Made by a program: the position numbers and the translations under genes. Source: Curvivirga aplysinae (GTDB taxonomy: Bacteria > Pseudomonadota > Alphaproteobacteria > UBA8366 > Aestuariispiraceae). Taken from it: DNA of 53,823 nucleotides. The stretch spans positions 1-53,823 of the forward strand of contig NZ_SMMC01000209.1 of the NCBI RefSeq assembly GCF_009711445.1. Reading direction: 5' to 3'. The notes under the pieces are model-generated. The model searched no databases. It had not been told where the DNA came from and worked only from the letters and a program-made list of their open reading frames with translations. The number at the start of each line of letters is the position of its first letter. Positions within the stretch are counted from its first letter, which is position 1. Below are positions 2,327 through 18,840 of this stretch, piece by piece.

Positions 2327-2560
2327 ATTGGCTTTTTTAGGTAGTTTAAGGATTTTCTCACGGTGACTTTCACAAAGGGAATCGTATAATCGTCAGACGG
2401 TCCTCGATTAATTGTTTGTATCACTCCGTGTGAATACCATTGATGAGCAGTAAATCATCAATCAACTCGATCAATAGGAAATTGAAACGTAGAGCTTAGC
2501 CAGACAAAATTTCGCTTTGACTGAGTGGAGGTTGTTTACAGCTTAAGTTTAGCGACAATT

Positions 2561-2598
2561 TTCCGAAGTTTTGTTTAAAGTATTTACTTTGACACTGC
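2561..2598. repeat. 38-bp imperfect direct repeat, left copy
   Basis: This copy starts TTCCGAAGTTTTGTTT and ends CACTGC. It matches 6425-6462 at 32 of 38 positions in the same orientation. It lies in the 294-bp stretch between the cyclase gene and the 3' end of the LysR gene, where I see no gene and no clear terminator. The two copies bracket the LysR-MttB-GcvT block. Its nature is unknown. Confidence 0.7.
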
Positions 2599-2620
2599 TA
2601 TTTCCCTTTATAATCAGGCA

Positions 2621-3487
2621 CTAACCTTGAGTCTTTATCCAGTCAATGAAGGCCATTACATTGGGATCGTTTTGTACTTCTTCAGAATAGACTAAGAAGT
2701 AGCCATAGTCTGACAATTCACAATCACTCAAACGAAACAATTGTCCCGCTTCGATTTCATTTGAAATAAGATCATCATTTAACGCCACACCTTGCCCATC
2801 CAATACGGCTTGAACGCGTACATTTGGGTCAGGAATAATCAACGTGTCATATCGTGTCCCGTGTTGGACACCAACTTTATTATACCAATTTGTCCAAGCT
2901 GAGCTTTTGTCACTGTCACGTAACAATGTGAATTTAGCAAAGGCGCTCTCAAGACCTTCTCGTTGAACTTTCTCATAAGCATCTTTATTCCCGGTAGGCC
3001 AGGCGGGGCAACTAAATAGCTTGGTCACTTCAACATTACGCCATTGTCCATTCCCCCATCGAATGGTGATCTGAATGTCTTTTTCAATCTTGTCAGACAT
3101 ATCAAGAATAGGTTCGATCCGAAGTCTGATATTTGGGTTGGTATTCATAAATTCCATCAAACGTGGCGATAGCCAACGAGAGGCAAAATAGGTGGACATA
3201 CCAATCGTTAGTGCGTTATCGGAAATTTCTTTCAAATGAAAGATCTGGGATTCTATCTGCGCGAAAGAATTTTTCGCTTGCATCAATAGATCTTCCCCTT
3301 TGGGTGTTAGGGTTATCCCACGCACATTTCGTTTAAATAACATAAACCCAAGAGTTTCTTCTAAACGTTTAATTCTATGACTAAGAGCCCCTTTAGTAAG
3401 GTTCATCTTCTCAGCAGCATCAGATATACTGTTGAACTGCGCAATATCTACAAAAGATCTTAAGTCATCAAAATTACGAAAAGCCAT
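2621..3487 (-). CDS. LysR-family transcriptional regulator (GcvA-like)
   Basis: This 288-aa LysR-type regulator has the winged helix-turn-helix at residues 5-65 (FVDIAQFNSISDAAEKMNLT followed by KGALSHRIKRLEETLG), with the typical GITLTPKGEDLL after it. The C-terminal part is a periplasmic-binding-protein-like effector domain. It is divergent from the methyltransferase pair at 3628-6287, which is therefore its most likely target. Two dyads lie in the intergenic region, one directly upstream of its own start, which suggests autoregulation. The effector is unknown; a methylated amine or one-carbon compound would fit the neighbours, but that is inference. Confidence 0.85.
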   Translation of the reverse strand: MAFRNFDDLRSFVDIAQFNSISDAAEKMNLTKGALSHRIKRLEETLGFMLFKRNVRGITLTPKGEDLLMQAKNSFAQIESQIFHLKEISDNALTIGMSTYFASRWLSPRLMEFMNTNPNIRLRIEPILDMSDKIEKDIQITIRWGNGQWRNVEVTKLFSCPAWPTGNKDAYEKVQREGLESAFAKFTLLRDSDKSSAWTNWYNKVGVQHGTRYDTLIIPDPNVRVQAVLDGQGVALNDDLISNEIEAGQLFRLSDCELSDYGYFLVYSEEVQNDPNVMAFIDWIKTQG

Positions 3488-3491
3488 CTAT

Positions 3492-3514
3492 ATCGTTTAA
3501 TTAATTTAAACGAT
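3492..3514. promoter_or_regulatory. Dyad next to the lysR start (probable LysR-regulator site)
   Basis: Perfect 9-bp inverted repeat ATCGTTTAA-N5-TTAAACGAT, beginning 5 bp upstream of the LysR start codon. In this position a bound regulator would cover the ribosome-binding region and promoter of its own gene. The T-N11-A pattern is present but is weak evidence in AT-rich DNA. Confidence 0.55.
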
Positions 3515-3545
3515 GGAGTCAAAATTTTTCGATTTTCATAAAGTA

Positions 3546-3564
3546 AGATATGCCCCACATATCT
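3546..3564. promoter_or_regulatory. Second dyad in the lysR-mttB intergenic region
   Basis: Inverted repeat AGATATG-N5-CATATCT with the LysR-box pattern T-N11-A inside (T at 3549, A at 3561). Its centre lies 52 bp from the centre of the dyad at 3492-3514, about five helical turns. An ATG at 3550 falls inside this dyad, which is one reason to place the methyltransferase start further downstream at 3628. Confidence 0.5.
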
Positions 3565-3627
3565 CATATAAACGCAAATCAACTTGTACATGATGTTCAA
3601 AAGCAAATCATATTAGGTTTCCCTCTC

Positions 3628-5175
3628 ATGACAGAAACGTCACCAAGAATCAAGGTAACAGATCGTCGCAGCAGACGCGGCAATCGTATAAAGTCGGTTG
3701 CGAAGCAAAAGTCACCAATCCTGTCTAAACGATTCATAGCCCCCTACGAACTTTTGTCAGACTCTGTTTTGGAGAGGTTGGAAGAACAGGCTGATTGGCT
3801 TTTGGAAAATGTTGGCATGGAATTCCCAGAGGGAGATGATTATCTCGACATATTTAGGTCGGCTGGTGCAAAAGTTGAAGGAAGACGTGTCAAATTTAGA
3901 GTAGGTCAAGCCCGTCAATTCTGTGAAACCGCACCTACCGTTTTCAAACTTGAAGCACGTAACCCGGTCCATAGTCTTGAACTTGGTGGAAACAATATTG
4001 TTTTGATGCCGGGCTATGGGTCGCCATTCGTCACAAGTCGAGACAGTTCAAGGCGATATGCAACACTGGACGATTTTAAGAATTTTGTGAAGCTGACTTA
4101 TAGTACTCCTTATTTGCATCATTCCGGTGGTACTATTGTCGAGCCCTCAGACATTCCAGTAAACAAGCGTCATCTGGATATGATGTTAGCCCATCTTACC
4201 TTGTCCGATAAACCATTTATGGGATCTGTCACACATCCTGCACGGGCACGTGATTCCATTGAAATGGCGCGCCTTGTATTTGGTCAGGAGTTTATGGAAA
4301 CAAACGCAGTTATGCAGGGGAATATCAATATTAACTCCCCCTTTGTTTTCGACAAGACAATGGCCGATTCTCTGCGCGTTTATGCAGAAGCTAATCAATG
4401 TGTTTGCATTTCGCCGGCCATTTTTGGAGGCGCAATGGGGCCTGTTACACCAGCGGCAATTGCAGCACAGACACTGGCTGAAAGCATCGTCGGCATTGCA
4501 CTTGTCCAACTAATTAACCCCGGATGCCCAGTTGTTATGGGGAGTTTTCATTCTACAATGAATTTACGCACGGGATCCCTGACCTTCGGGACACCTGAAG
4601 CCAATCTGGTCAGTATGGCCTTGGCACAATTGGGGAAAAGGCTGGGTGTTCCCATACGTTCTGGTGGAGGGGAGGTTACTGCTGCGAATACAGCAGATGG
4701 TCAAGCAATGGCAGACAGCACAAGCGCCATGTGGGCCACCTTATTGTCCGGTGCCCATCAGGTGTGGCATGCCGCAGGCTGGTTGGAAGGCGGGCTGACC
4801 ATGTCTTACGAAAAATTCATTCTGGATATTGATAATTGCGGTGCCCTTCTCAGGATGCTGCAAGGTATGTCGGTAACGCCAGATACTCTTTCCAAAGAAA
4901 GTTATGAAGAGATTGGTCCAGGTCAGAATTTCCTTTCAACCCGCCATACCCTCGCCCATTTTGCCGATGCGAACTACGAATCCTTGCTTCCTGACGTTGG
5001 CCCCTACGAATCTTGGAAAGAGGCGGGCAGTTTATCTGCGGATCAAAGGGCGACAAGCGTCTGGAAGAACATGCTGGAAGCTTACGAACCACCTCAACTG
5101 GATTCAGAAATATTGTTGAATCTCAACGACTATGTGGCATCGCGCAAAGAAGAGATGCCTGACGCTTGGTATTAA
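3628..5175 (+). CDS. MttB-family (trimethylamine methyltransferase-like) methyltransferase, non-pyrrolysine type
   Basis: About 515 aa, homologous over its full length to the MttB superfamily. Characterised members move a methyl group from a quaternary or tertiary amine to a corrinoid protein. Seen are an Arg-rich N terminus (DRRSRRGNRIK) usual in the family, conserved blocks such as LMPGYGSPFV, the MGSFHSTMNLRTG/FGTPEANLVSMALAQLGKRLG region, and a C terminus rich in Trp and Tyr. There is no in-frame amber codon, so it is a non-Pyl member like glycine betaine methyltransferase MtgB. The ATG at 3628 has an AGG upstream and gives a family-typical N terminus; an upstream ATG at 3550 lies inside a regulatory dyad. 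A GcvT-like gene follows after 14 bp. No corrinoid-protein gene is nearby. The substrate is unknown; a methylated amine is likely. Confidence 0.82.
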   Translation: MTETSPRIKVTDRRSRRGNRIKSVAKQKSPILSKRFIAPYELLSDSVLERLEEQADWLLENVGMEFPEGDDYLDIFRSAGAKVEGRRVKFRVGQARQFCETAPTVFKLEARNPVHSLELGGNNIVLMPGYGSPFVTSRDSSRRYATLDDFKNFVKLTYSTPYLHHSGGTIVEPSDIPVNKRHLDMMLAHLTLSDKPFMGSVTHPARARDSIEMARLVFGQEFMETNAVMQGNININSPFVFDKTMADSLRVYAEANQCVCISPAIFGGAMGPVTPAAIAAQTLAESIVGIALVQLINPGCPVVMGSFHSTMNLRTGSLTFGTPEANLVSMALAQLGKRLGVPIRSGGGEVTAANTADGQAMADSTSAMWATLLSGAHQVWHAAGWLEGGLTMSYEKFILDIDNCGALLRMLQGMSVTPDTLSKESYEEIGPGQNFLSTRHTLAHFADANYESLLPDVGPYESWKEAGSLSADQRATSVWKNMLEAYEPPQLDSEILLNLNDYVASRKEEMPDAWY

Positions 5176-5189
5176 AAAAGGAGTTTGAT

Positions 5190-6287
5190 ATGACCAAAGA
5201 ACTAAGCCGTATATCTGCATTGGCTTCCCGACATACAGAATTAGGATCCGGCCTGGAAGACTGGAATGGTATGGGCACTGCCTGGAGCTATAACTCAGAT
5301 CCAAATGATGAGCATGATGCCATTCGGGAAAAAGCAGGTATGTTTGATATGTCTCCCCTTAAAAAAATATTTATCCGCGGCAAAGATGCTGCCGAAGTAC
5401 TTGATCATCTGACCACACGGGAGATGAGTAAGATTAATCCTGGTCAGGCGGCCTATTTATGCGTTTTGACTGAAGAAGGAACGCTGGCAGATGATGCGAT
5501 TGTCTCCAATAATGGAGGAGATGAATGGATGATCGTACATGGGTCAGGTGAAACCATGGCACTTTTGGAGCAGTCTGCCACTAATCGAGATGTGAATATT
5601 GCCTTTGACGACGACTTGCATAATGTTTCGGTTCAAGGACCAAAATCACTTGAAATTCTTAATCCGCATTGTGATTTTGACCTACAGGCACTTGCTTATT
5701 TCCATCATCAACCAGGACTGTTATTCGGTCATCCCTGCCGTATTTCACGTACGGGATATTCAGGGGAGCGCGGCTACGAGATATTTGCGCATGGATCCGT
5801 TATTGGGGATATTTGGGATAAACTTGCGGCATCCGGGGTAATGCCTTGTTCTTTTGCGTCCTTAGATAAAGTTCGTATTGAAGCAGGGCTGTTATTCTAT
5901 GGCTATGATATGACAACAGATCATACTCCCTTTGAAGTCGGATTAGGCTTCACAATTAGCAAAAACAAGAAAGGTTTCAGAGGCTGTGAGGCTTTATGGG
6001 CTAAACAAGGCAAAGAGCAAATTCAAAATGTTTGTTTAGACATTAACCTTGATGACATGGCAGTAGGCGGTGAGATTTTGTTTATGGAACAGCGCGAGGT
6101 GGGTGTCGTGAATAGTCCTGCCTATTCGCATCGTCTTCAAAAATCACTTGCTCTAGCGCATGTTCATGCAAGCTTGGCGAAGCCCGGCACTGTTCTGGAA
6201 ATGCGAGGCGATAATATGAGCACTACTGCCACCATCGTGGAAATGCCAATTTATGACCCTGATAAGTCTCGAACGCATGAGGTTTAG
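5190..6287 (+). CDS. GcvT-like aminomethyltransferase family protein (probable folate-dependent methyl acceptor partner)
   Basis: A 365-aa member of the GcvT/aminomethyltransferase family, which binds tetrahydrofolate and takes up one-carbon units. Seen are the family hallmark GMFDMSPLKK near residue 57, the GYSGERGYEIF block, and the DKVRIEAGLLFYGYDM block that ends the folate-binding domain. The ATG at 5190 has a strong AAGGAG ribosome-binding site; an in-frame TTG at 5166 overlaps the previous gene and is less likely. There is no glycine cleavage H- or P-protein gene next to it, so a role in glycine cleavage is doubtful. Pairing with the MttB homologue suggests it collects the removed methyl group on folate, but this is inference. 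Confidence 0.8.
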   Translation: MTKELSRISALASRHTELGSGLEDWNGMGTAWSYNSDPNDEHDAIREKAGMFDMSPLKKIFIRGKDAAEVLDHLTTREMSKINPGQAAYLCVLTEEGTLADDAIVSNNGGDEWMIVHGSGETMALLEQSATNRDVNIAFDDDLHNVSVQGPKSLEILNPHCDFDLQALAYFHHQPGLLFGHPCRISRTGYSGERGYEIFAHGSVIGDIWDKLAASGVMPCSFASLDKVRIEAGLLFYGYDMTTDHTPFEVGLGFTISKNKKGFRGCEALWAKQGKEQIQNVCLDINLDDMAVGGEILFMEQREVGVVNSPAYSHRLQKSLALAHVHASLAKPGTVLEMRGDNMSTTATIVEMPIYDPDKSRTHEV

Positions 6288-6424
6288 CTTTTCAGGTAGA
6301 TCTCTTCGTTAAAACTTGGCTTGAATGACTTTGCTTCAGAACGATAGCATTTAGACGCGGTTTTTATAAAAATTATTAGCGAGTTTCATTATTTGTGGTG
6401 CGCAGTTGAAAATTTGCGCCCATC

Positions 6425-6462
6425 TTCCGAAGTTTTGTTTGAAATATTTACTCGCGCACTGC
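6425..6462. repeat. 38-bp imperfect direct repeat, right copy
   Basis: Same orientation as 2561-2598, with six mismatches (at offsets 17, 20 and 29-32). It lies in the 193-bp gap between the GcvT-like gene and the end of the aryl polyene operon. That gap holds no gene that I can support. Confidence 0.7.
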
Positions 6463-6480
6463 CATGAATACTTATTGACT

Positions 6481-7710
6481 CTAGGAACATTTTCTAAAAA
6501 TCAAAGACGTGTTTATGCCCCCAAACGCAAAATTATTAGACATCATATATTCAGCATCGAAGGTTCTGCCTTCGCTTACTATATAGTCTAAATCAGCACA
6601 TGCGGGATCGACTGTCTTCAAGTTGGTTGTATGTGTGAACCAACCATCATGCATCATCTCAAGACCTAGCCAAGCTTCAAGCGCACCACAAGCACCCAAA
6701 CTATGACCAAAATAGCTTTTTAATGAATGAATAGGCGTTTGACCGCCAATAACTTTCAACGTTGCATGGCTCTCTGCAATATCTCCACGCTCTGTAGCAG
6801 TACCATGCGCGTTGACATAATCAATTGCACTAGCATCCAGTTTCGCATCTTTTAACGCTGTCTGAAGGGCCATCTGCATTGTTTCTTGAGTGGGTTGTGT
6901 TATATGATTTCCATCGGAATTTGTTGCAAAGCCAACAACTTCACCATAAATCGTTGCGCCACGTGCCTTGGCCCGTTCATATTCTTCAAGAATAAGTGAG
7001 CCTGCACCTTCTCCTATAACCAACCCATCTCTATCTTGATCAAAAGGACGGGGGGTCAAGTCAGGTGCATCATTCTTGGTCGATGTGGCATAAAGCGTAT
7101 CAAACACAGCTGCCATAGACGGACAAAGTTCCTCAGCACCGCCAGCAACCATGACATCCTGCAACCCATATTTAATGGATTCATACGCATAGCCGATCCC
7201 TTGGCTTCCAGATGTACAAGCACTTGATGTAGGTATAACACGTCCTGTTAAACCGAAAAAAATACCAATGTTAACCGCAGCCGAATGGCTCATCATTTTA
7301 ACATAGCTAGTTGCGGTCAGATTTTTAATCATGCCGGTATTAATCAACTCAGAAAACGCCGTCATAGGTTGGGTGCTGCCAAAAGAGGAGCCATAGGCCA
7401 CCCCCATACGACCACTGCCAAAGAGATCACTATCTCCGTCCAAACCAGCATGTTTTAGGGCAACCTCAGTCGAATAAACCGCCATACGGGATACAGGCCC
7501 CATAGAGCGCAACTGTTTTCTTGAATAATGCTTATCAACATTAAAATCCAATATCGGGCCAGCCAAACGGGTATTCAGGTCTTTGTAAAAGTCCCATGAA
7601 TCCATTTTTTTTATGCCCGTTCTATTTGCACGGAAGGCTTCTCGAATAGTTGGCCAATCTTTGCCAAGCGATGTCACACCGCTCATACCAGTTACAGCTA
7701 CGCGTCTCAC
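6481..7710 (-). CDS. apeR: Beta-ketoacyl-ACP synthase, FabF-like (ApeR)
   Basis: A 409-aa thiolase-fold condensing enzyme that should extend acyl-ACP intermediates of the aryl polyene by decarboxylative Claisen condensation. The full Cys-His-His set is visible: Cys165 in SSACTSGSQG, His302 in NAHGTATERGD, and Lys331/His336 in KSYFGHSLGACGA. The start is GTG, directly after the stop of the upstream ketoreductase. It is the last gene of the operon, the same place apeR holds in known ape clusters, where it acts as a homodimeric KS beside ApeO:ApeC. Confidence 0.9.
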   Translation of the reverse strand: MRRVAVTGMSGVTSLGKDWPTIREAFRANRTGIKKMDSWDFYKDLNTRLAGPILDFNVDKHYSRKQLRSMGPVSRMAVYSTEVALKHAGLDGDSDLFGSGRMGVAYGSSFGSTQPMTAFSELINTGMIKNLTATSYVKMMSHSAAVNIGIFFGLTGRVIPTSSACTSGSQGIGYAYESIKYGLQDVMVAGGAEELCPSMAAVFDTLYATSTKNDAPDLTPRPFDQDRDGLVIGEGAGSLILEEYERAKARGATIYGEVVGFATNSDGNHITQPTQETMQMALQTALKDAKLDASAIDYVNAHGTATERGDIAESHATLKVIGGQTPIHSLKSYFGHSLGACGALEAWLGLEMMHDGWFTHTTNLKTVDPACADLDYIVSEGRTFDAEYMMSNNFAFGGINTSLIFRKCS

Positions 7711-8445
7711 TTAATACATTCCCCCATTAATTGATAGCACTTGCCGTGTTACATAAGCAGCTTCATCGGAACATAAATAAGACACAGCGCCAGCGACCTC
7801 ATCAGGGGTCCCTAATCTTTGTAATGGGATCGTTTTTTTGATTTGGTCTAAAGGCAAATCATCTATCATTTGTGTTTCAATTAAACCGGGAGCAATAGTG
7901 TTTACAGTGATTTTACGCTTACCCAATTCTACCGCAAGAGATTTCGCTGCCCCGATCAAGCCAGCTTTTGAGGCACTGTAATTTGTCTGTCCCCGATTAC
8001 CTACTTCACCAGAAAGAGAGCTCATGACGACAATACGACCTCCTTTACGAGCAGATACCATCGGCATGACAAGTGGATGCAGAACATTATAAAAACCATC
8101 CAGATTTGTATGGATGACTTGGTCCCAATCAGCAGCAGTCATGGCAGGAAAGGCGGTGTCCTTGGCTATACCTGCATTAAGTATTGCTCCGTAAAATGCG
8201 CCATTTTCTGAAATAAAACTTTCTATTTTCTCTTTGCATTCCATACGGTCAGCAATATCAAATTGTATCAAGCTGCCCTCACGACCCACATTTTGTACTT
8301 GTTGCAAAGTTTGCTGCGCCCCATCCCAGTCGCGACCATAATGAATGACGACATCAAAACCGTCATGGGCCAATCGGGTGGCAATTGCTTGTCCGATTCC
8401 TTTACTCGCGCCGGTCACAAGAATACTACGTCCTGTATTCGTCAT
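7711..8445 (-). CDS. apeQ: 3-oxoacyl-ACP reductase, FabG-like SDR (ApeQ)
   Basis: A 244-aa short-chain dehydrogenase that reduces the 3-oxo group after each condensation, with NADPH. Seen are the nucleotide-binding TGASKGIG at residues 11-18, NAG at 90-92, catalytic Ser142/143, and Tyr156-x3-Lys160 in NYSASKAG. It ends with the family-typical INGGMY. It lies between the dehydratase and the FabF-like synthase, as apeQ does in other aryl polyene operons. Alone it would be called FabG; the context makes ApeQ much more likely than a housekeeping reductase. Confidence 0.9.
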   Translation of the reverse strand: MTNTGRSILVTGASKGIGQAIATRLAHDGFDVVIHYGRDWDGAQQTLQQVQNVGREGSLIQFDIADRMECKEKIESFISENGAFYGAILNAGIAKDTAFPAMTAADWDQVIHTNLDGFYNVLHPLVMPMVSARKGGRIVVMSSLSGEVGNRGQTNYSASKAGLIGAAKSLAVELGKRKITVNTIAPGLIETQMIDDLPLDQIKKTIPLQRLGTPDEVAGAVSYLCSDEAAYVTRQVLSINGGMY

Positions 8446-8446
8446 T

Positions 8447-8908
8447 TCAGGTCATCTCCATAGCGTCAAAATTATCTGGTTGATAAACATTCAGTGTCGC
8501 GTTAGAGACTTTCACCCCTTCACGCATAATGATACATTCGAAAGCTGCCATTTCACCATCGTTATAAAGAACGCTTGCTTCAATCTCAAGGATATCACCA
8601 AGAAGAAAATCACTTTCCGATAGGGTTAATTTTCTCGTCCCCAATAAGAAGCCAATCTTAACGTCCTCCCCCAGATCCAAAGCTAGGACTCCTTTATGAC
8701 AAGCAATGGTTTGTGCCATATATTCCACGGCGATATAGGCCGGTACTGCATCTCCATATAGGAAAGGTGCCTTTTCATTAATGCAGACAACAGACTTAAT
8801 TGAAGTTTCATTATACCCAACAACTTTATCGACTAAGATCATTGGGGCTTCATGGGCCAATAAATCATTAGTTGAATAATGACAGCTTTTTAATTCTAGT
8901 TTACTCAT
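8447..8908 (-). CDS. apeP: 3-hydroxyacyl-ACP dehydratase, hotdog fold (ApeP)
   Basis: A 153-aa hotdog-fold protein that dehydrates 3-hydroxyacyl-ACP to the trans-enoyl form, leaving the double bond that becomes part of the polyene. Seen are His19 in LLAHEAPMILVDKV, the usual FabZ/FabA-like catalytic His position, and VPAYIAVEYMAQTIA on the central helix. It overlaps the upstream KS stop by 4 bp (8905-8908), indicating translational coupling. In characterised clusters ApeP works with the shorter ApeI; the counterpart here is at 18427-18789. Confidence 0.88.
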   Translation of the reverse strand: MSKLELKSCHYSTNDLLAHEAPMILVDKVVGYNETSIKSVVCINEKAPFLYGDAVPAYIAVEYMAQTIACHKGVLALDLGEDVKIGFLLGTRKLTLSESDFLLGDILEIEASVLYNDGEMAAFECIIMREGVKVSNATLNVYQPDNFDAMEMT

Positions 8909-10077
8909 AATGATCCACGCCCCAGAATAACACTCACATTATTGCCACCGAACGCAAATGAGTTACTCATCATATAATTGGATGAAGCTTCAGCCTTCGA
9001 CGACACTAAGCGAATGTCTTTTGCCATTTCCGCAAAATTTTCACCACAATAGTGTTGGGGTAGCTTGTTATGTTGAAACGCCAAATATAAAAAAGCAATT
9101 TCATTAATCCCCGCAGCACCTAGCATATGACCTGTTAATTGCTTGGTAGAACTTACATAAGGTATATTTTCCGAAAAAACAGACCGGATAGCCTTGACTT
9201 CCATCGCATCATTAAGATGTGTACCAGTTCCATGTACGTTGATATAGCAAATATCTTTTACCTTTATATCTGCATCTTTGAGCGCGAATGACATGGCATT
9301 AGCAGCCCCAGTGCCTTCAGGATCAGGTGCACTCACATGATACGCATCACTGGTTTCACCAATACCCAATAATTCGGCACCAACCATTTCTCTTGTCAAA
9401 AGAAAAGCGGCAGCGCCCTCGCCGATATTAATGCCGTCCCTTGTTTCAGATAACGGATGACACAAACCATTTGACAGCGCTTCCAGTGCCTTAAAACCAT
9501 TCAAAGTCAACTGACATAATGTATCAGCGCCCCCTACGATAACTGCATCACAAAGCCCAGTTGCAAGATAACGGCGTGCAGTAGATAAAGCTTTTACACT
9601 TGAGGTGCAGGCAGTTGAAATCGTCAATGCAATGCCATCGAGCCCGTAATAAGCACGCACAAATTCTGAAATTGAACTTGGTTCCTGTTTTTCATATTCA
9701 AAACTTTCGCCAAAACTGCCCAATTTACTTTTAAGCATAATCTGATCTTCATTATCAGAGATACCTGTCGTGCTGCTGCCTAAAACAACCGCAACTCTAT
9801 CTTTCCCATATCGTTTTATCGCCTTTTTGATTTGTGCCTCTATTTGCATAAGAGCCGCCAACATCATACGATTATTACGACTATTAAATCGTTCAAACTC
9901 TTCAGATATCAAAGGAAGAGAGGATGAGACTTCACCGACAATAACAGACTGACCTTTGATCAAATCCATGCGTTCTTGCATCCCTAGCAAAGACGGTTGG
10001 AAAAGATTATATGCCACTTCGGTTGACGTCTTTCCCAAAGGATTGATAATCCCAAGGCAATTCAAGAAATACCCCAT
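8905..10077 (-). CDS. apeO: Beta-ketoacyl-ACP synthase (ApeO), catalytic half of the KS:CLF pair
   Basis: A 390-aa condensing enzyme with the active-site Cys157 in STACTSSVKAL, His282 in NVHGTGTHLNDAME and Lys312/His317 in STKQLTGHMLGAAG. In the aryl polyene type II system ApeO pairs with a catalytically dead partner, ApeC, as a chain-length-factor-like heterodimer; the partner here is at 21972-22712. It sits at the head of the conserved O-P-Q-R block and is followed by the 4-bp overlapping dehydratase gene. Confidence 0.9.
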   Translation of the reverse strand: MGYFLNCLGIINPLGKTSTEVAYNLFQPSLLGMQERMDLIKGQSVIVGEVSSSLPLISEEFERFNSRNNRMMLAALMQIEAQIKKAIKRYGKDRVAVVLGSSTTGISDNEDQIMLKSKLGSFGESFEYEKQEPSSISEFVRAYYGLDGIALTISTACTSSVKALSTARRYLATGLCDAVIVGGADTLCQLTLNGFKALEALSNGLCHPLSETRDGINIGEGAAAFLLTREMVGAELLGIGETSDAYHVSAPDPEGTGAANAMSFALKDADIKVKDICYINVHGTGTHLNDAMEVKAIRSVFSENIPYVSSTKQLTGHMLGAAGINEIAFLYLAFQHNKLPQHYCGENFAEMAKDIRLVSSKAEASSNYMMSNSFAFGGNNVSVILGRGSL

Positions 10078-10078
10078 A

Positions 10079-10639
10079 TTATGCCCCGACCTTTTGAGAA
10101 TGGATGATTAACTTATAGCCAACGTCTTCATTAACTAGGGTAACATTTTGCTGCCACCGGTTATTAGGCGAGTCTTCGGAATGGATGATGACATGTGTCA
10201 TTTCTGATTGATGAATTACACGTTGTCGTCCATCAACTTCAACATGTTGAATTGAATTATCAATATCTTTAAGGCGGTCCACAGGCCAGAAACTATAGAC
10301 CATATCTCTGAAAATATGATGCATAGATATGGTTTTTGGAAAATGTTCATAAGTTTTATAGTCTACACCTTGTTCAGACCAATATGCCTCTGCCAAACGT
10401 TGACCAAATGTATCTAGAATAATCACTTTAATACCAGAATGACGAATGGAAAGTCTGGATTGAAAGACAAAATTCTTTTGCTTAAAACGTCCTTGCAAAA
10501 GCTGGATAACTTCACCTTCAAAGTTAGGTGATTGCCATTGCAATTTAGACGGTATTGTTTCTTTATATTCTAACGCATCAAGCTGGTCGCCTGAACAAGC
10601 ACTAAGCAACAGAAAAAGCCAGATCAGAATTATTCGCAT
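10079..10639 (-). CDS. apeN: ApeN-like outer-membrane lipoprotein
   Basis: A 186-aa lipoprotein with a short hydrophobic signal and a lipobox LLSAC (Cys15). The chosen ATG at 10639 overlaps the stop of the oxidoreductase gene by 10 bp and gives the clean signal MRIILIWLFLLLSAC; an upstream in-frame extension would bury the signal peptide. The body is beta-rich with no catalytic motif, consistent with the DUF3261-type lipoproteins at this place in ape operons. Its presumed role is in moving or anchoring the polyene lipid at the outer membrane; no direct function is known to me. Confidence 0.78.
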   Translation of the reverse strand: MRIILIWLFLLLSACSGDQLDALEYKETIPSKLQWQSPNFEGEVIQLLQGRFKQKNFVFQSRLSIRHSGIKVIILDTFGQRLAEAYWSEQGVDYKTYEHFPKTISMHHIFRDMVYSFWPVDRLKDIDNSIQHVEVDGRQRVIHQSEMTHVIIHSEDSPNNRWQQNVTLVNEDVGYKLIIHSQKVGA

Positions 10640-11865
10640 TGGGCAGCAACCAAATTGATATAATGGGCAGGTCTTCTGACAAATGCATTCTCTTGATCCC
10701 AAGCATAACCTGCCAAAATTGAGGTGATCATACGTTTGATATCATTATCAGTATTTGGGGATTGTTTGATAATGCGTTGAAGTCTGCCATCGTACCACGA
10801 AGAGACGAATTCCCTGAAACAATCCACTCCTACCATGAGTGGTCTTACATATTCCTGAGTCCAATCAATTTTACTTTCTTGTTTTTGTTTAAGATAAGCA
10901 TCTACCGCTAAATCGGCAGATTTCATCGCAATAGTTACACCGGATGAAAAAACAGGATCCAGAAATTCTGCCGCATTCCCTAATAAGGCAAAACGTTCTC
11001 CAGCGAGTTGACGCACATTAGCAGAATAACCGGTGATTTTCGAAACTGACCTGATCTCTTTTGCGTCAGATAAAAGGTTTTTTAATTCCGTCATGCCGGA
11101 AATACCTTGCCATAGGATCTCCGCATTGCTTTGCGAATTATCTGCTGATTTGTCTGTTGGCATAACAATACCAATAGAACTCACATTGTTCGAAAAAGGA
11201 ATCAGCCAGGACCATATATTCGCATCCTTTTCATGCACTGAAATTAGAATTTTATTGCGGTCAAATTCTTTCTTATCTAGTTGATCATGAATATGTGTGA
11301 AAAATGCAGTACGTGACGGAAAATCAGAAGGTTGATCCAGGTTCAACAATCGCGGCAATACCCGTCCATAACCGCTAGCATCCATCACAAAATCGCATTC
11401 AATTTTTTTTGTGTTTTGATGGTGATCTTGGATTTGCAACTCACATCCTGAAGGATCAATATGCGCTGCTATAACCTCACATTGATAATGGATAGAAATA
11501 CCTGCCTTTTCAACGGCATCGGCAAGAATTTTATCAAAATGTTGGCGCTGTACTTGGAAGGTTGTGTCCCAACCATCTGCGGTTTTTTCCGAGAAATCAA
11601 TACTAGCGAAGCCATCTGGAAATTGAAAATTAGCGCCATTTTTATATTGGAAATTCGCTTTCTCAACAACCTCAATCAAACCAGCCCTTTCCAAATATAC
11701 CATCGATTGAGGTAGTAAGCTTTCACCAATCACAAAGCGGGGGAATTGCTGCTTTTCTAATACGATTACATGACATCCCGCATCATATAATCTTTTTGCA
11801 GCTATCGCACCAGCAGGCCCAGCGCCAATCACTACGACATCACATCTTTCCACTATGTCTTGCAC
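10630..11865 (-). CDS. FAD-dependent oxidoreductase of the flavin halogenase/geranylgeranyl reductase type
   Basis: A 411-aa flavoprotein. Seen are the FAD-binding GxGxxG at residues 14-19 (GAGPAG), GESLLPQS at 48-55, Lys75 in FQYKNGANF where halogenases place their catalytic Lys, WSWLIP at 218-223 matching the halogenase signature WxWxIP, and FLDPVFSSG at 301-309 matching FxxPxxSxG. It lies between the exporter (its start is one base from the apeM stop) and apeN, which it overlaps, so it belongs to the operon. It may halogenate the aryl head or oxidise/reduce the polyene. The related CmlS and geranylgeranyl reductase groups share part of these motifs, so halogenation is not proven. Confidence 0.75.
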   Translation of the reverse strand: MQDIVERCDVVVIGAGPAGAIAAKRLYDAGCHVIVLEKQQFPRFVIGESLLPQSMVYLERAGLIEVVEKANFQYKNGANFQFPDGFASIDFSEKTADGWDTTFQVQRQHFDKILADAVEKAGISIHYQCEVIAAHIDPSGCELQIQDHHQNTKKIECDFVMDASGYGRVLPRLLNLDQPSDFPSRTAFFTHIHDQLDKKEFDRNKILISVHEKDANIWSWLIPFSNNVSSIGIVMPTDKSADNSQSNAEILWQGISGMTELKNLLSDAKEIRSVSKITGYSANVRQLAGERFALLGNAAEFLDPVFSSGVTIAMKSADLAVDAYLKQKQESKIDWTQEYVRPLMVGVDCFREFVSSWYDGRLQRIIKQSPNTDNDIKRMITSILAGYAWDQENAFVRRPAHYINLVAAQCE

Positions 11866-14172
11866 TTATATATTCTCCCGTGACGTTCTTGCTAATGGAG
11901 CAAGAACAAAAGCAATTGTCACTCCTATTAAAACTGTTAATCCAAATGTATGAAGCGCATAATGATTACTAAAAACAAGTAATCCAAAAGCTAGTGCTGA
12001 AGAGATGGCAGATAATCCATTTGCATAAATGCTAATTGGATAATGTTCGTCACTGCTTTCAGCAGCAAACAAGGCATAATCCATCCCTAATGCAAATACC
12101 AGTATTAACCCCACTGCCGTAAAGAAAGAAAAACCATGCCCAAAACTCGATAATAATACAGGTGTAAGAAGTATCGCTATAGCTACTGGTAAAACGATAC
12201 GCCAGCTATGTCGCTTTCCATACTTGAAAGCTAAAAGCCATGTAACCAGCAGTAGCGTAATACCTAAAAGGTGAACGATCTTTTCACGATAAAAAGCGAA
12301 ACTTGCAGAGATATCCCCAGCAGGATCAACAAATGTAACATTTGGCATTTCAGATATTCGCATTAAATCTTGAATTTTCCTAATATCCGTTACTCCATCC
12401 AAACGAATGATATGTGCTGCACCAGACGTTGTGGCATCCTGAGTTAATATCTGCTTATTGACTTGCTCTACGAGGCGCTTATCTAAAACATTTTTAGGCG
12501 TAAGTAGCTGCCCTAAACTATCTTGATAAGCGGTTTTCGTTAAAAGTGGGTAGGCAGACCAATCGACATTCTCGAAAGCCTCTTGAATCAGTTGTTGATC
12601 TTCCAACTGTTGTCTTATTGATGGAAAAAATTCAGAAACCATCATATAATTTGTAAGATATCCTCGGTACAGCATATTTTCTAATACTGGTTTAAAGACC
12701 TCTTCGCTTTCCAAAACATCCTGTGTGTTTTGTCCCTCCACGATGAAAAATTGATGACTGGAGTTGGTTGAAAGCAAAGTTTGAATATGCTGTTCCTGCC
12801 TCTGAAGACTTTCAGATAAAGACTGCATCTTTCGAATATCATCATTCACATGTAAATTTGGTATAAACAAGATGAAAGCAATAATGGCGCCGCCTAAAAT
12901 CAAGGCCGGTTTATGCCCTTTTGAATGGCGTTGCCAAAATAAAATCAAGCGGTTAGACAAAATAAATAAAGGACCAGATGGGGATTTAGTTTTCATACGA
13001 TCAAGGTGCGGGATCACATAGCCCACCGTTAAGTAAGATCCAACTAAACCTGTTATCGCAAATAAACCTATTTGCTTTAGGCCAGGAAACGGTAAGAAAA
13101 AGAAGCAAAAGAAACCGACTACAGAACTAAGCATCCCTAAACGCATAGCTTTGTTAACAGCATGATGACGTTCTGTGGTCGTGCCTATATTTTTCACGAA
13201 AATAGTACTGCCATAATGGAAGCAATAATCGACCGTCACTCCTAGAATGGCGACTCCAAATACAAGGGTAAATGCATAAATTTGCTCATGGATAAAAAGA
13301 ACAATCGCAATTCCCGAAACAAGTCCTGTATATATTGCAATTAAGGCATAGAAAATAGGGTAAGCAGAGCGAAAAGAAATCAATACAAGAAACAGAACAC
13401 CAATTAGTGAAATACTGCCCAGTATTGTTGCTTCCCCCTTACCTTGTTCTATACCTTCATATGTATAAAAAATAGCGCCAAGCCTATGCAAATCCAGATC
13501 TATATATTGCGCCTCAAACTGCTCAATCAGCGGTAATAAATTTTGTTGAATTTCAGGGGCAAACGCACTTCCTGATAATTGGAATTCCAACAGTGCATGA
13601 TATTTCCCATCTTTCATTAAAAAGGGAATGCCGTTTTCATTATTCCAATTTTTTTGATCTGCATTTAATTGTTGTAACCATCGTGCCTTCAACAATAGAG
13701 GATCATGGTAAACTGTATTCGCAGATAAAATGGAGAAAGGGTTTATTAATTGCGCCATTGTTTGTTGTAAGACATCGTTAATTTGCCCTGACTTTAACAA
13801 TATCCTCGTCTCTACATCCAGTAAGCCTGAGCGATAAAGTTGCAGATTTTCAAATAAAGTAGATTTATTCAAATTTGAATGAATCTCAGGAGTTTCTTTC
13901 GTCAAACCAGCTTGCTTTAGATTTTCAAGAAGTTTGCTCGTTACAGACAACAAGAATGCTTTTTCTTCATGGGATAGAACCAGCAAAACACGGTTTTGTA
14001 CATCTTCGGCAATTTGTTTTTTTGCTTGTTGTTTCCAACTATTTTGTGGCGCATCAGATGGAAGCAGTTCAAGTAGGTCGCCATTGATAGGTAAACCGCT
14101 GCGACTTTCCCATATAACAAAACTTGATAGTAATGCGAGACAAATTACCCAGATTGAAAACGCAATCCTCAT
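11866..14172 (-). CDS. apeM: RND/MMPL-family exporter (ApeM)
   Basis: A 768-aa inner-membrane protein with the duplicated RND layout: one N-terminal membrane helix, a large periplasmic loop (about residues 35-240), five helices (about 245-400), a second periplasmic loop, then five more C-terminal helices. The helix sequences FGVAILGVTVDYCFHYG and GLILVFALGMDYALFA carry the Asp residues expected in the proton relay of MMPL/HpnN-type lipid exporters. With the LolA-like protein just upstream and lipoproteins in the same operon it probably extracts the aryl polyene lipid from the inner membrane. It overlaps or abuts its neighbours, so it is co-transcribed. Confidence 0.88.
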   Translation of the reverse strand: MRIAFSIWVICLALLSSFVIWESRSGLPINGDLLELLPSDAPQNSWKQQAKKQIAEDVQNRVLLVLSHEEKAFLLSVTSKLLENLKQAGLTKETPEIHSNLNKSTLFENLQLYRSGLLDVETRILLKSGQINDVLQQTMAQLINPFSILSANTVYHDPLLLKARWLQQLNADQKNWNNENGIPFLMKDGKYHALLEFQLSGSAFAPEIQQNLLPLIEQFEAQYIDLDLHRLGAIFYTYEGIEQGKGEATILGSISLIGVLFLVLISFRSAYPIFYALIAIYTGLVSGIAIVLFIHEQIYAFTLVFGVAILGVTVDYCFHYGSTIFVKNIGTTTERHHAVNKAMRLGMLSSVVGFFCFFFLPFPGLKQIGLFAITGLVGSYLTVGYVIPHLDRMKTKSPSGPLFILSNRLILFWQRHSKGHKPALILGGAIIAFILFIPNLHVNDDIRKMQSLSESLQRQEQHIQTLLSTNSSHQFFIVEGQNTQDVLESEEVFKPVLENMLYRGYLTNYMMVSEFFPSIRQQLEDQQLIQEAFENVDWSAYPLLTKTAYQDSLGQLLTPKNVLDKRLVEQVNKQILTQDATTSGAAHIIRLDGVTDIRKIQDLMRISEMPNVTFVDPAGDISASFAFYREKIVHLLGITLLLVTWLLAFKYGKRHSWRIVLPVAIAILLTPVLLSSFGHGFSFFTAVGLILVFALGMDYALFAAESSDEHYPISIYANGLSAISSALAFGLLVFSNHYALHTFGLTVLIGVTIAFVLAPLARTSRENI

Positions 14173-14174
14173 CT

Positions 14175-14750
14175 TTAATTAGGCTCCGGCAGGCTTGGCA
14201 TCTCACTTAACGGTAACAGTTCAATTTCCCCGAATTGTATTTCTTCCCGATCGCCTGTTTTGCGCTTCATATAAACAGAAGACAGCATGTTCTTTTGCCC
14301 GTTGAACCTGATCAGGTCAAAAGGTGTATTCTTCAACTTTTGCGTAGGGAGAGCGAATATCCAACCGGCTTCATTTTCAAGTAATTCTACTTGATATGTT
14401 TTGCTTATTTCTTCCTTAATATCCTGGCTGTCTAAAGTAAGCAGTAATGAACGAATAGATTGTAAAAACGGAAGTTGGCTTATGGGGACTTCCATTGATT
14501 TTTCCTTCGCAACAAATTGTATTATATTTGTTTCCGAAATTAACATCTCCGTCTCAAAGGGGAATGTCACCTGCCAATAGATAATATCTGAGGGATAAAT
14601 ACTTAAATAGCCTTCTGACTTGATAGGCTGATCCATACCCGATAGCCATTTATGTTGTAGAAAAGCAATGCGGCTACCCATTTGATTTGCTTGCGCCAGA
14701 CCGATTGGGACAATCAAAAGAATGGTAAATAAAACAAGAATCAGACGCAT
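14175..14750 (-). CDS. apeL: LolA-like periplasmic carrier (ApeL)
   Basis: A 191-aa exported protein with a signal peptide at residues 1-20 (hydrophobic, ending GLAQA) and an all-beta body that looks like the LolA/LolB outer-membrane lipoprotein carrier fold. There is no lipobox, so it should be soluble in the periplasm. The start overlaps the end of the thioesterase gene by 10 bp. In ape clusters this protein is thought to carry the polyene lipid between the MMPL exporter and the outer membrane. The fold assignment rests on context and general pattern, not on a catalytic motif. Confidence 0.78.
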   Translation of the reverse strand: MRLILVLFTILLIVPIGLAQANQMGSRIAFLQHKWLSGMDQPIKSEGYLSIYPSDIIYWQVTFPFETEMLISETNIIQFVAKEKSMEVPISQLPFLQSIRSLLLTLDSQDIKEEISKTYQVELLENEAGWIFALPTQKLKNTPFDLIRFNGQKNMLSSVYMKRKTGDREEIQFGEIELLPLSEMPSLPEPN

Positions 14751-15154
14751 TGATAAGCTTCCACCAGATTGATCAAAACATCCGGCGAGGCAAGGCGCAT
14801 TTCCTGATCTTCAATACCCACAGCAACCTGCACAGTATAACCTTTATTAATCCGATGGCCTGTCTCTTTATCGGTGATCAAATATTCAATTTTTAAGCGA
14901 CTTTCATACTCAACCAATTTTGCTTCTATGATCACTTCTTGCGCAAAGTGTATTGGTTTAACATATTTCAAGCGCATATCGACAATCGGCCACGCATAGC
15001 CGGACTCATACATCTCGTTATAATTATAGGATATTCTATCAAGTAATGCTGATCGGGCTTGCTCAAAAAAGCGAACATAATTTCCATGCCAAACGATTTG
15101 CATGGGGTCCAAGTCATAAAATTGTGCTTTTATTTCTATAGACGCTGTAATCAT
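14741..15154 (-). CDS. apeK: 4HBT-type acyl-thioesterase (ApeK)
   Basis: A 137-aa hotdog thioesterase. The 4-hydroxybenzoyl-CoA thioesterase signature is clear at residues 12-28: FYDLDPMQIVWHGNYVRFFE, with the catalytic Asp in DLDPMQ. It could release or transfer the finished polyene acyl chain, or edit mis-primed ACPs. The gene lies between the ammonia-lyase and apeL; known ape operons have a thioesterase at the same point. Confidence 0.85.
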   Translation of the reverse strand: MITASIEIKAQFYDLDPMQIVWHGNYVRFFEQARSALLDRISYNYNEMYESGYAWPIVDMRLKYVKPIHFAQEVIIEAKLVEYESRLKIEYLITDKETGHRINKGYTVQVAVGIEDQEMRLASPDVLINLVEAYQCV

Positions 15155-15168
15155 TTAAATATTCTATC

Positions 15169-16713
15169 TCACTTATATAGTTGCCAGTGACGCTTGCGTA
15201 TATCAACAAGCAAGCCACGCAAAACAGCTTCAAGAGGCTTATCTTCGGTAATGAAGTCAATTCGATCTTTCAACTGAGTCTGAAAATTCTGTATCGCAAT
15301 GGTCATTCTGGACATATCCAGTTCTTGATTGCGTTCACGTAAACGCAAGGCCTGACAACAAGCTATCAAATGCCCTGCAATAACCTGTTCTGTTAATTCT
15401 ATGACACGCAAACAATCTCTTGCGGCTATGGTTCCCATACTCACTTTATCTTGGTTATGGCATTCCGTTGATCTGGAAAAGACACTGGCGGGCATGGTGT
15501 TTTTCAATGCCTCAGCCGTCCATGCAGAAACACCAATTTGCACGGCCTTTAAACCATGGTTCAAAGGTGCTCGCTCCCCAATGGCGCCTGATAGGTTCGA
15601 TGGTAACCCATTGTTGAATTTTACGTCCACCAACAAGGCCATTTGTCGGTCCACTAAATCGGCGATATTTGCAATTAGATTTTTCATCCCATCCATGACA
15701 AATCCGATATGTCCTCCATAAAAATGCCCACCATGAAGAATACGTTCGGCTTCACCATCGATGATAGGATTGTCATTGGCACTATTTAATTCTGTTTCAA
15801 TAAATTGCCTGAAGGTTGGTAGCATATCTTCCAGAACACCAATAACATGCGGAGCACAACGGATAGAATATCGATCTTGCAGACGATCCAGTGGTACATC
15901 TTCCATACAATTTGCAATATCTTCTCTAATATAAGCGGCAATTCGATTTTGACCCGGATGCGGTTTAGCAGCAAACAAAACTTCATCAAAATGTTGTGGA
16001 TTGCCTTTCATAGCAAGGCTAGTCATCGCTGTCAGACGTGCAGTCAATTGACATAGATAATCCGCCTGTATATAGGCGAGACAGGCAAGTCCTGTCATGA
16101 CGGCTGTGCCATTCATAATTGCCAAAGCCTCTTTAGGGCGCATGACAAGCGGCGTTACATTCAACTCCTTAAAAACATCCATAGTGGGGCGGCGTTCATC
16201 TTTATAAAGCACCTCACGCTCCCCAATGAGAACCGCTGCTACATAAGATAAAGGCGTCAAATCTCCACTGGCTCCAACGGAACCTTCTTCAGGTATAATT
16301 GGTAAGATATCTTCATTCAACAACGTGGTCAGTAAACGCAATAGATCAAAACTTACCCCTGACACTCCGCGACAAAGAGAGGCGAGGCGAACAGCTAAAA
16401 CAGCACGCGTTTGGTCAGCGGAAAGAATTTTGCCCAACCCACAACCGTGAAAACGTGATAAATGGATAGGAAGTTCATAGGCATTTTCTACTGCAACGCC
16501 ACGTGTTACGGAATCTCCATAACCTGTTGTCACGCCGTAAATAACGCCATCTTCTTGAAGTTTATTATCAAGGAAATCTGCACCTTTTTTGATCTTATCA
16601 ACAAAGGCAGGTGTTTCTGATAGGAATGCTGTTCTTTTTCTTTGTGAGATTGCAAAAACATCTTCGATAGATATTTCGTCTTCACCAAAAATAACAGGTG
16701 CATTATCCAACAT
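15169..16713 (-). CDS. MIO-type aromatic amino acid ammonia-lyase (HAL/PAL/TAL family)
   Basis: About 514 aa, the normal length for the family. It should remove ammonia from an aromatic amino acid to give an aryl acrylate, the likely starter acid for ApeH. Seen are Tyr59 in YGVTTGYG, the MIO-forming Ala148-Ser149-Gly150 in GSVGASGDLTPLS, and the NDNP and FHGG/GHFYGGHIG regions. The selectivity pair aligned with Ser-His in histidine, His-Leu in tyrosine and Phe-Leu in phenylalanine lyases reads Phe88-His89, so the substrate cannot be named. I use the ATG at 16713 (AGAG 6-7 bp upstream); in-frame starts up to 16782 overlap apeJ. It is inserted between apeJ and apeK, which are neighbours in clusters lacking it. 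Confidence 0.88.
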   Translation of the reverse strand: MLDNAPVIFGEDEISIEDVFAISQRKRTAFLSETPAFVDKIKKGADFLDNKLQEDGVIYGVTTGYGDSVTRGVAVENAYELPIHLSRFHGCGLGKILSADQTRAVLAVRLASLCRGVSGVSFDLLRLLTTLLNEDILPIIPEEGSVGASGDLTPLSYVAAVLIGEREVLYKDERRPTMDVFKELNVTPLVMRPKEALAIMNGTAVMTGLACLAYIQADYLCQLTARLTAMTSLAMKGNPQHFDEVLFAAKPHPGQNRIAAYIREDIANCMEDVPLDRLQDRYSIRCAPHVIGVLEDMLPTFRQFIETELNSANDNPIIDGEAERILHGGHFYGGHIGFVMDGMKNLIANIADLVDRQMALLVDVKFNNGLPSNLSGAIGERAPLNHGLKAVQIGVSAWTAEALKNTMPASVFSRSTECHNQDKVSMGTIAARDCLRVIELTEQVIAGHLIACCQALRLRERNQELDMSRMTIAIQNFQTQLKDRIDFITEDKPLEAVLRGLLVDIRKRHWQLYK

Positions 16714-16756
16714 TTTCATTCTCTTTATAACAGAAGCTTCTAAAAATTTGCTCTTC

Positions 16757-18430
16757 TTAACGATGGTTATTCCAGAAGTCAAAGAAGTTAAACCATTGGT
16801 AGGGATAGCGCATACAATATTTCTCTAAAAATGTTGTATATTGTTTTTGATACCCAATGATGGCCTCTTCCTTATTTCTTCGAGGTAAAGTAATTTTCTC
16901 TGCCAATTTATCGAAAACCAAACGGTAACGATCTCCCTCTTCCATACATAACATCATATATGTAGGGGCTTTCAATAACGACGCCAAAATGACTCCACCT
17001 TGTGGGAAATAGGCTTCTTGCCCCAAAAAATCTATCTTTGAGACACGTCTACCTGCATCAACAGGTGTACGATCAGACGCAATAACAATCCATTCGCCTC
17101 TTTGGAGACGCTCTTCCATCTCAATCGCAGTTGCTGGGCCCATTTCGGTCACTTCAATCATATCGATCGCTGCTGCTGGATTATAATATGTCAGCATTCG
17201 ATTAAACTTTATCGCATTCTTTGTATGTGCAAAAACCGTGATCTTTATTTGGTGTATATTCGAGGAAAGCGCCCGTGCAATTTCGATATTGCCAAGATGT
17301 GACGTCAACACCACAATTCCCTGTCCTGATTTAACGACCTCTTGAAAATCAGGATTTTCAGGTAAAATAATGGAGCTTTGGCCGATATCACCGGTCCATA
17401 CCGCCAGTTTATCAAGCGCCGCGCGACCAAAATGCTGGAAATGCCGAAAGCTCTGACGCCAACTTACTTTTCCTGTCTTCCCAAGCGCCCGAAAAACCTT
17501 CTCAAGATATGAAATAGACGCTTTGCGTGGGGCCGATTGGCTCAAAAAGAAGTAAAGTAAAATTGGTTGCAAAATTGCCAAACAGATTGAGCGTCCAAAT
17601 AGTTTATAGGCACCCGCAAGGAAACAAATTCCCCAATACATGCCTCTTTCACCGCGTTCAGACCAATGAAGGTTATCTCCTTTGCCAGACGCAGGCATCA
17701 TTTTTCGCATAAGCAGCACCGGCATTCTAAAGAGCATCTCAAAAAACAATTTCGAATGCATTTTACTGATTCTGATATTATCTTCAAAGGTCTGGAAGTT
17801 AGATGTGTTATCTGCAGGGTAAGTTACTTTGACCGGAACATTTCGAATTTGTATGCCATCCCAGGCAAGTCGGACCATGATTTCAATATCAAAATCCATA
17901 CGTAATCCGATTTGACGACGATTTAACAAATTCGAAACTGGTTCTAGGGGATATACACGAAAGCCACACATGCTATCTTTAATTTGGAAAGATAAGGTTT
18001 CAATCCAAACCCAAATATGGGTAATCCAGCGTCCAATTTTTCGGCTTAAAGGGATTGTATCATCATAAACAGGCACCCCCGTTATCAAATCTCTTGGGTG
18101 CTTTTCAGCAAGCGCAATTAAATCAGGTATGGCTTCAAGGTCATGTTGTCCGTCCGCATCGACTTGCAAGACATGTGTAAAACCCATTTCTTTGGCCAAT
18201 TCAAAGCCATGGATAACCGCCTTACCCTTACCCTGATTCACGTCAAGATGATGCGCATATAGATGATTATCGGGATCATGTAGATTTGCAACAATTGATC
18301 GTGTTGGTTCTGAGCTGCCATCATCAATAATAAGAACGACATGCCCTTCACTTACCAGTTTTTTTGCAAGTGATTCGATAACCCTTGGATGATTATAGCA
18401 GGGAATAACGACACAGAGCCTGAAATTCAT
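16757..18430 (-). CDS. apeJ: Glycosyltransferase family 2 / LPLAT acyltransferase fusion (ApeJ)
   Basis: A 557-aa two-domain protein. Residues 1-240 form a GT2 glycosyltransferase: VVIPCYNHPRVIE at the start, IIDDGSS, and the metal-binding QVDADGQHD, followed by the CGFRVYP block. Residues 290-557 form a lauroyl/myristoyl-acyltransferase-like domain with the HX4E motif SHLGNIE. The fusion would add a sugar and an acyl chain and so turn the aryl polyene into a membrane lipid. The start overlaps the apeI stop by 4 bp. The fused layout is the same as in known ape operons. Confidence 0.9.
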   Translation of the reverse strand: MNFRLCVVIPCYNHPRVIESLAKKLVSEGHVVLIIDDGSSEPTRSIVANLHDPDNHLYAHHLDVNQGKGKAVIHGFELAKEMGFTHVLQVDADGQHDLEAIPDLIALAEKHPRDLITGVPVYDDTIPLSRKIGRWITHIWVWIETLSFQIKDSMCGFRVYPLEPVSNLLNRRQIGLRMDFDIEIMVRLAWDGIQIRNVPVKVTYPADNTSNFQTFEDNIRISKMHSKLFFEMLFRMPVLLMRKMMPASGKGDNLHWSERGERGMYWGICFLAGAYKLFGRSICLAILQPILLYFFLSQSAPRKASISYLEKVFRALGKTGKVSWRQSFRHFQHFGRAALDKLAVWTGDIGQSSIILPENPDFQEVVKSGQGIVVLTSHLGNIEIARALSSNIHQIKITVFAHTKNAIKFNRMLTYYNPAAAIDMIEVTEMGPATAIEMEERLQRGEWIVIASDRTPVDAGRRVSKIDFLGQEAYFPQGGVILASLLKAPTYMMLCMEEGDRYRLVFDKLAEKITLPRRNKEEAIIGYQKQYTTFLEKYCMRYPYQWFNFFDFWNNHR

Positions 18431-18789
18431 TGTGGCCTCAGCTTAATAATACCAGAGGAAAAAACATCGTCTAAAGAACTGTAACGGAAAGCAACGTGGT
18501 TTTTAACAGCCTGATAATCCAGCTTTAATTGAACGGTCATATCGGGCTCTATAAATTTGCGATATTTTAACTGCGATATTTCATGAATGGATGAGTGGAT
18601 TTCAAAATATTGTCGGGTATATCTCACCGCCCAATCCAATTGTGCGACGCCCGGGAGAATCTTTTTTTGAGGGAAATGTCCCTGAAATTGAAATAAACTC
18701 GCCGTGGCGCATATATCCAATGTTAAGATATTCTCGACGCGATCTATTTTAATAATTTCTGGTTCTATATTTGAAGTCTGCCAGTCCAT
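18427..18789 (-). CDS. apeI: ApeI-like hotdog dehydratase
   Basis: A 120-aa hotdog protein related to 3-hydroxyacyl-ACP dehydratases. Seen are FQGHFPQKKILPGVAQLDWAV, with His in the GHFP motif and the central helix after LPG, both typical of FabZ-like proteins. The ATG at 18789 gives a family-sized protein; an in-frame GTG at 18831 would add a poorly conserved 14 residues. It works with ApeP in characterised clusters. It is followed by apeJ with a 4-bp overlap. Confidence 0.85.
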   Translation of the reverse strand: MDWQTSNIEPEIIKIDRVENILTLDICATASLFQFQGHFPQKKILPGVAQLDWAVRYTRQYFEIHSSIHEISQLKYRKFIEPDMTVQLKLDYQAVKNHVAFRYSSLDDVFSSGIIKLRPQ

Positions 18790-18840
18790 GTTCCGCCCAT
18801 TTGAAATACCGCGACAATATAGGGGTTTCACTCATAGCTA

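Follow-up and report, generated by a model that had tools for sequence, protein, structure and literature searches.

A LysR-MttB-GcvT gene module of marine bacteria that probably demethylates a putative algal betaine

Two described systems come closest to the locus considered here. The first is MtgBCD, which in Ruegeria pomeroyi and Phaeobacter is shared by methionine synthesis and betaine demethylation, as set out in a paper published in 2025 (PMC12478193). The second is DmmD, which is thought to conjugate formaldehyde to tetrahydrofolate (THF) (PMC5520151).

The present analysis concerns a 53,823-nucleotide stretch of DNA from Curvivirga aplysinae (contig NZ_SMMC01000209.1, hereafter the window), in which genes for an MttB-superfamily methyltransferase and a GcvT-like protein are preceded by a divergent gene for a LysR-family regulator. 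The trio is apparently a conserved and undescribed operon of known family members, and no description of a LysR-MttB-GcvT module was found in the literature. The reading that is modestly favoured is a LysR-controlled N-demethylation module, in which MttB would act through a shared MtgC and MtgD and the GcvT-like protein would capture a later C1 unit. Such a module of marine bacteria would probably remove methyl groups from a putative algal betaine.

Layout and conservation of the locus

An earlier note on this DNA had described a non-pyrrolysine MttB homologue with a GcvT-like protein encoded 14 bp downstream, and both Pfam and the absence of an in-frame TAG confirm that description, to which the overlooked divergent LysR gene at 2621-3487 is now added. 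The features of the locus are the following.

2621-3487, minus strand: gene for a LysR-family regulator (HTH_1 and LysR_substrate), divergent, the third gene of the module
3488-3627, no strand assigned: intergenic stretch, presumed from position alone to hold the operator and promoters
3628-5175, plus strand: non-pyrrolysine MttB-superfamily methyltransferase (515 aa; PF06253, E = 4.3e-196)
3628-3729, plus strand: MttB N-terminus, a basic arginine-rich tail with a net charge of +9 to +11 that possibly docks the acidic MtgC
4660-4689, plus strand: MttB loop SGGGEVTAAN, with an insertion and a Lys-to-Asn change by alignment to M. barkeri MttB
5177-5183, plus strand: ribosome-binding site aaaggag of the GcvT-like gene, read from the sequence
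5190-6287, plus strand: stand-alone GcvT-like folate protein (365 aa; PF01571, E = 6e-65, and PF08669)

The MttB frame is open from 3550 to 5175 (541 aa), making 3550 an alternative upstream start; the ATG at 3628 is favoured because the orthologues are mostly 516-536 aa long. The gap between the MttB stop and the GcvT-like start contains an AGGAG ribosome site. The earlier statement that no corrinoid gene lies beside the pair holds, as neither a corrinoid gene nor an MtgA/MtgD-type gene adjoins it in a listing of the window ORFs, part of which were scanned, and no oxygenase gene was seen next to the pair in the window. The flanking genes on both sides look unrelated, being an adenylate-cyclase-like protein and an apparent aryl-polyene cluster. 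The latter (6481-20726), likely of the aryl-polyene biosynthetic type, encodes ketosynthases, a reductase, a dehydratase, an MMPL-like exporter, an aromatic amino acid lyase and a glycosyltransferase/acyltransferase fusion. A further stretch of the window (26222-40970) is a possible 2-aminobenzoyl-CoA type catabolic cluster, with a 764-aa FAD/FMN oxidoreductase fusion, an AMP-ligase, hydratases, a thiolase and a branched-chain-type ABC transporter.

A scan of contigs across genomes, with the GcvT-like protein as query, recovered one distant locus and 39 close loci (60-73% identity), the latter hosted by Roseobacteraceae, Hyphomicrobiales, Rhodospirillales and two gammaproteobacterial MAGs. Culturable hosts of the module include Ruegeria atlantica and a Leisingera strain. 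The pairing pointed out in the earlier note recurs, with MttB directly adjoining the GcvT-like gene in 36 of the 39 loci and the MttB orthologues being 50-70% identical to the window protein. LysR is likewise present in 36 loci (44-55% identity), and all three genes occur together in 34; in two divergent loci (L060 and L064) the order is LysR-GcvT-MttB. When flanking ORFs of the 39 loci were clustered, no other gene recurred in more than three loci, apart from a five-member cluster made up of frames antisense to the GcvT gene. Fixed extra partners, such as a transporter or an FAD oxidase, were dropped as candidates, none recurring in these flanks. In a Rhodobacteraceae sample the counts were at least 5/296 and at least 6/296, with the best four to six candidates per genome being scored. 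The adjacency of MttB and GcvT is far beyond chance.

Distances among the MttB proteins correlate with those among the GcvT-like proteins (r = 0.94, or 0.86 without three divergent loci), and none of 2000 permutations reached r = 0.86. LysR distances correlate to a similar degree, so the correlation reflects co-inheritance and not physical interaction. The MttB tree also has the same deep split as the GcvT tree, and thus the pair has been co-inherited.

Tight conserved pairing and congruent trees are what would be expected if, as the earlier note had it, MttB and the GcvT-like protein were directly coupled as one methyl-transfer system to THF, either corrinoid-free or with the GcvT-like protein taking the methyl group from methyl-MtgC in place of MtgD. 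Such coupling is nevertheless quite unlikely, in part because each gene occurs without the other. In the case of two genomes (G482 and G524; loci L092 and L093), MttB and LysR are intact and the GcvT-like protein is truncated to roughly its N-terminal 89-123 residues, a natural uncoupling of the two genes. Conversely, locus L046 retains LysR and GcvT with no MttB adjoining, and in L058 (Pontibaca salina, 2461-7089) LysR and the GcvT-like gene flank a DmdA-like protein and an unassigned 314-aa protein that replace MttB; the best MttBs elsewhere in these two genomes are 51% and 47% identical, respectively. Since each protein thus occurs without an intact partner, the two are not absolutely interdependent. 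A further genome (G432) has stops within MttB and a shifted GcvT. Separate loss of the two genes in some genomes is also consistent with the GcvT-like protein serving a general formaldehyde/methylene-THF balance and being only co-regulated with MttB, as is the proposal that DmmD limits formaldehyde toxicity (PMC5520151). Co-inheritance, together with the strict adjacency seen in 36 of the 39 loci, suggests a tighter link, however, and a general role of this kind is improbable.

Relationships of the MttB and GcvT-like proteins

The window MttB matches PF06253 (MTTB) at 652 bits, against a cut-off of 25, over model positions 5-500 of 500. Pyrrolysine TMA methyltransferase MttB (TIGR02369) was rejected as an identity at 225.9 bits against a cut-off of 525, and the protein is classed as non-pyrrolysine because the frame has no TAG. 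The nearest solved structure is 4yyc of S. meliloti, and in a tree that lacks a proven aerobic MtgB the window clade stands apart from the branch of 4yyc and the paralogue on contig C184 (support 99/96).

A one-residue insertion and Asn in place of Lys mark the loop that aligns with pyrrolysine 334 to Lys338 of M. barkeri MttB, both in the window protein and in 33 of 36 orthologues; the three divergent orthologues retain the Lys and lack the insertion. The Lys is kept in most MttB paralogues, but the change to Asn is not unique to the window clade, as the paralogues on contigs C7 and C147 also have Asn. Given the insertion and the lost Lys, the chemistry of MttB could differ, and the unusual loop is a further point for direct coupling. 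The specific proposal that altered-loop MttBs pass the methyl group to GcvT-bound THF, directly or through methyl-MtgC and bypassing MtgD, is very unlikely; if true, it would represent a folate-coupled quaternary-amine demethylase, with a GcvT fold replacing the usual pterin-binding barrel. The predicted structures are of moderate quality (pLDDT 79 and 72 for the two proteins) and weakest at the MttB active site, and for this reason no pocket was interpreted.

For the GcvT-like protein, the best solved relative by sequence is the folate domain of TMAO demethylase (Tdm). A tree of 43 sequences places it outside the branch of glycine-cleavage T-proteins, an identity also rejected by score (TIGR00528, 203.2 bits against 235.85). 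The order of branching inward is TMAO demethylase, DmmD-type, flavoprotein/Etf-linked and finally the MttB-linked clade (100/100), the window protein being sister to the DmmD-type clade and not within it. Members of the DmmD-type branch cluster with mgs-like, Rieske-like and reductase genes, which is the dmmDABC layout as recognised from sequences and weak family matches, whereas neighbours in the flavoprotein/Etf-linked branch are Old-Yellow-Enzyme flavoproteins, Fe-S/EtfB fusions and EtfA. The nearest affinity of the protein is with the clade of DmmD and the TMAO-demethylase folate domain, both of which act beside N-demethylases that release formaldehyde. This family also adjoins other N-demethylases in genomes without MttB or without a corrinoid protein. 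For instance, homologues 41-54% identical occur in three genomes where MttB was looked for and not found (G055, G285 and G306), and a search for a B12-binding_2 protein in G055 and G116 found none. That GcvT relatives adjoin unrelated demethylases argues against direct coupling to MttB.

Asp102 of the folate site (codon 5493-5495) is invariant in 28 of 28 sequences and aligns with Asp552 of dimethylglycine oxidase. The THF-binding Arg of E. coli GcvT (R223) is apparently Leu here, likewise in TMAO demethylase, and folate binding is on that account not certain.

The predicted fold of the GcvT-like protein matches those of DmdA and LigM, enzymes that transfer methyl groups directly to THF, and this likeness is a point for direct coupling. 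The GcvT fold shared with DmdA also speaks for the protein being itself a DmdA-like methyltransferase, which would demethylate a sulfonium or quaternary amine with direct transfer to THF, in parallel to MttB; so does the DmdA-like protein that stands at the place of MttB between the same LysR and GcvT in L058. This is unlikely, as the match to DMSP demethylase DmdA (NF009133) is rejected by score (134.9 bits, the cut-off being 410), the protein retains the Asp found in methylene-transferring members, and a tree that contains no function-proven DmdA groups the protein with TMAO demethylase and the DmmD type.

A corrinoid protein elsewhere in the genome

The only B12-binding_2 protein of the genome is an MtgC-type protein of 231 aa on contig C166 and, this being the sole match, no classical MetH was found. 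It matches MtgC models with scores below their cut-offs. Its neighbours are a PF13769 protein and DUF1638, the latter giving the layout of a split methionine synthase. An MtgD-type pterin methyltransferase candidate lies on contig C48, beside genes that resemble homocysteine methyltransferase (PF02574) and MetF (the latter identified by eye). This MtgC/MtgD gene set has its counterpart in the methionine synthase and glycine betaine demethylase that are shared in Ruegeria pomeroyi and Phaeobacter (PMC12478193). Each of the 40 genomes that encode the GcvT-like protein, the window's own included, has an unlinked MtgC orthologue, as against 75 of 385 genomes in a class-wide sample; MtgC is common in these lineages, so the co-occurrence is partly ancestry.

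The presence of both MtgC and MtgD weighs against direct coupling and rules out a corrinoid-free system as the leading reading. Of the free or unlinked corrinoid suggested in the earlier note, the unlinked form is borne out by MtgC on C166 and the corrinoid-free form is not. The distinct demethylation route from MttB to the GcvT-like protein likewise gives way, as the corrinoid and methyltransferase genes that the note had named as evidence against it are largely found elsewhere in the genome. Direct MttB-to-GcvT transfer is unlikely, and the 'missing' corrinoid protein would be a shared one.

Use of this MtgC by the window MttB is suggested by matching charged tails. An arginine-rich N-terminal tail is found in 42 of 44 MttB rows (net +3 to +12; the remaining two are partial), as compared with a mean charge of +0.7 (SD 2.9) over the N-terminal 32 residues of 43 ORFs from the window. 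The MtgC proteins have an acidic N-terminal extension, mostly of -8 to -12 where fully read, and the C-terminal tail of MtgD is arginine-rich in 12 of 12 sequences (these tails occur at all MttB loci, window 3628-3729 among them, and at L096:2896-3852 and L001:1081-1776). Curated MtgC models begin at residue 18 of the C166 protein, the pyrrolysine MttB model begins at residue 67 of the window MttB, and residue 4 of D. hafniense MtgB (9yce) aligns with its residue 64; the tails of MttB, MtgD and MtgC are apparently absent from anaerobic homologues. They may dock the MttBs and MtgD onto the shared MtgC by an electrostatic code, a possible way for one corrinoid protein to serve nine or more demethylases. 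The basic tail is present in the window MttB, as in its paralogues, and absent from the GcvT-like protein, a further argument against direct coupling.

Nine MttB genes are encoded in the genome, including one that is split across two frames. Those on C7, C147 and C212 (L071, L072 and L074) are directly followed by DMGDH-like FAD-GcvT fusions, the one on C7 being itself split in two frames. The paralogue on C206 (L070:4580-9435) lies beside an Old-Yellow-Enzyme flavoprotein and a member of the mandelate-racemase/enolase family, so that the locus resembles a betaine epimerase with a second demethylase, as in a proline-betaine-like pathway. The FAD-GcvT and Old-Yellow-Enzyme neighbours are putative second-step demethylases, and their presence speaks for the favoured reading. 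The paralogue on C123 (L073:10677-12229), in two frames through a frameshift or assembly error, adjoins an enolase-family gene.

Proposed pathway and comparison with known systems

In the favoured N-demethylation module, the substrate would be a small quaternary amine, a putative betaine. MttB would take one of its methyl groups and pass this to the shared MtgC encoded on another contig, from which MtgD would move it to THF to give methyl-THF. The resulting tertiary amine would lose a further methyl group through an unlinked oxidative demethylase and, in the manner proposed for DmmD, the GcvT-like protein would capture the C1 unit, either formaldehyde or iminium, in the form of 5,10-methylene-THF. 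We infer the class of substrate, what the GcvT-like protein does and the order in which these steps occur. In particular, the oxidative second step is proposed from the kinship of the GcvT-like protein, since no oxidative demethylase is linked to the pair as a recurrent gene in the 39 loci. The trio may thus represent a compact, apparently undescribed module that joins a shared-corrinoid demethylation network of marine bacteria recognised only in 2025, and the gene pair is a concrete lead for a new betaine substrate.

The non-pyrrolysine fold of D. hafniense MtgB (2qne, 9yce) is matched over the whole domain, but that protein, from an anaerobe with its own corrinoid protein, lacks the basic tail of the window MttB. 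Tdm is the nearest solved structure to the GcvT-like protein, with the same apparent Leu at the THF-binding position; its C-terminal GcvT domain is fused to a metal-dependent demethylase domain, whereas the window protein is free-standing. DmmD is also a stand-alone GcvT-like protein beside an N-demethylase, and relatives in dmmDABC layouts are 41-44% identical to the window protein. The partner of DmmD is a formaldehyde-releasing oxygenase, in contrast to the methyl-transferring MttB of the window (PMC5520151), and the dmmABC linkage is absent at the window pair, with no recurrent oxygenase in the 39 loci. In comparison with MtgBCD of R. pomeroyi, the window MttB lies off the C184/4yyc branch, in a tree that lacks a proven aerobic MtgB, and has an altered loop, and its LysR and GcvT-like partners are not described in the accessible portion of that paper (PMC12478193). 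What the two systems have in common is an MttB-family protein together with the gene set for an unlinked MtgC and MtgD, which are shared with methionine synthesis in R. pomeroyi and putatively so here.
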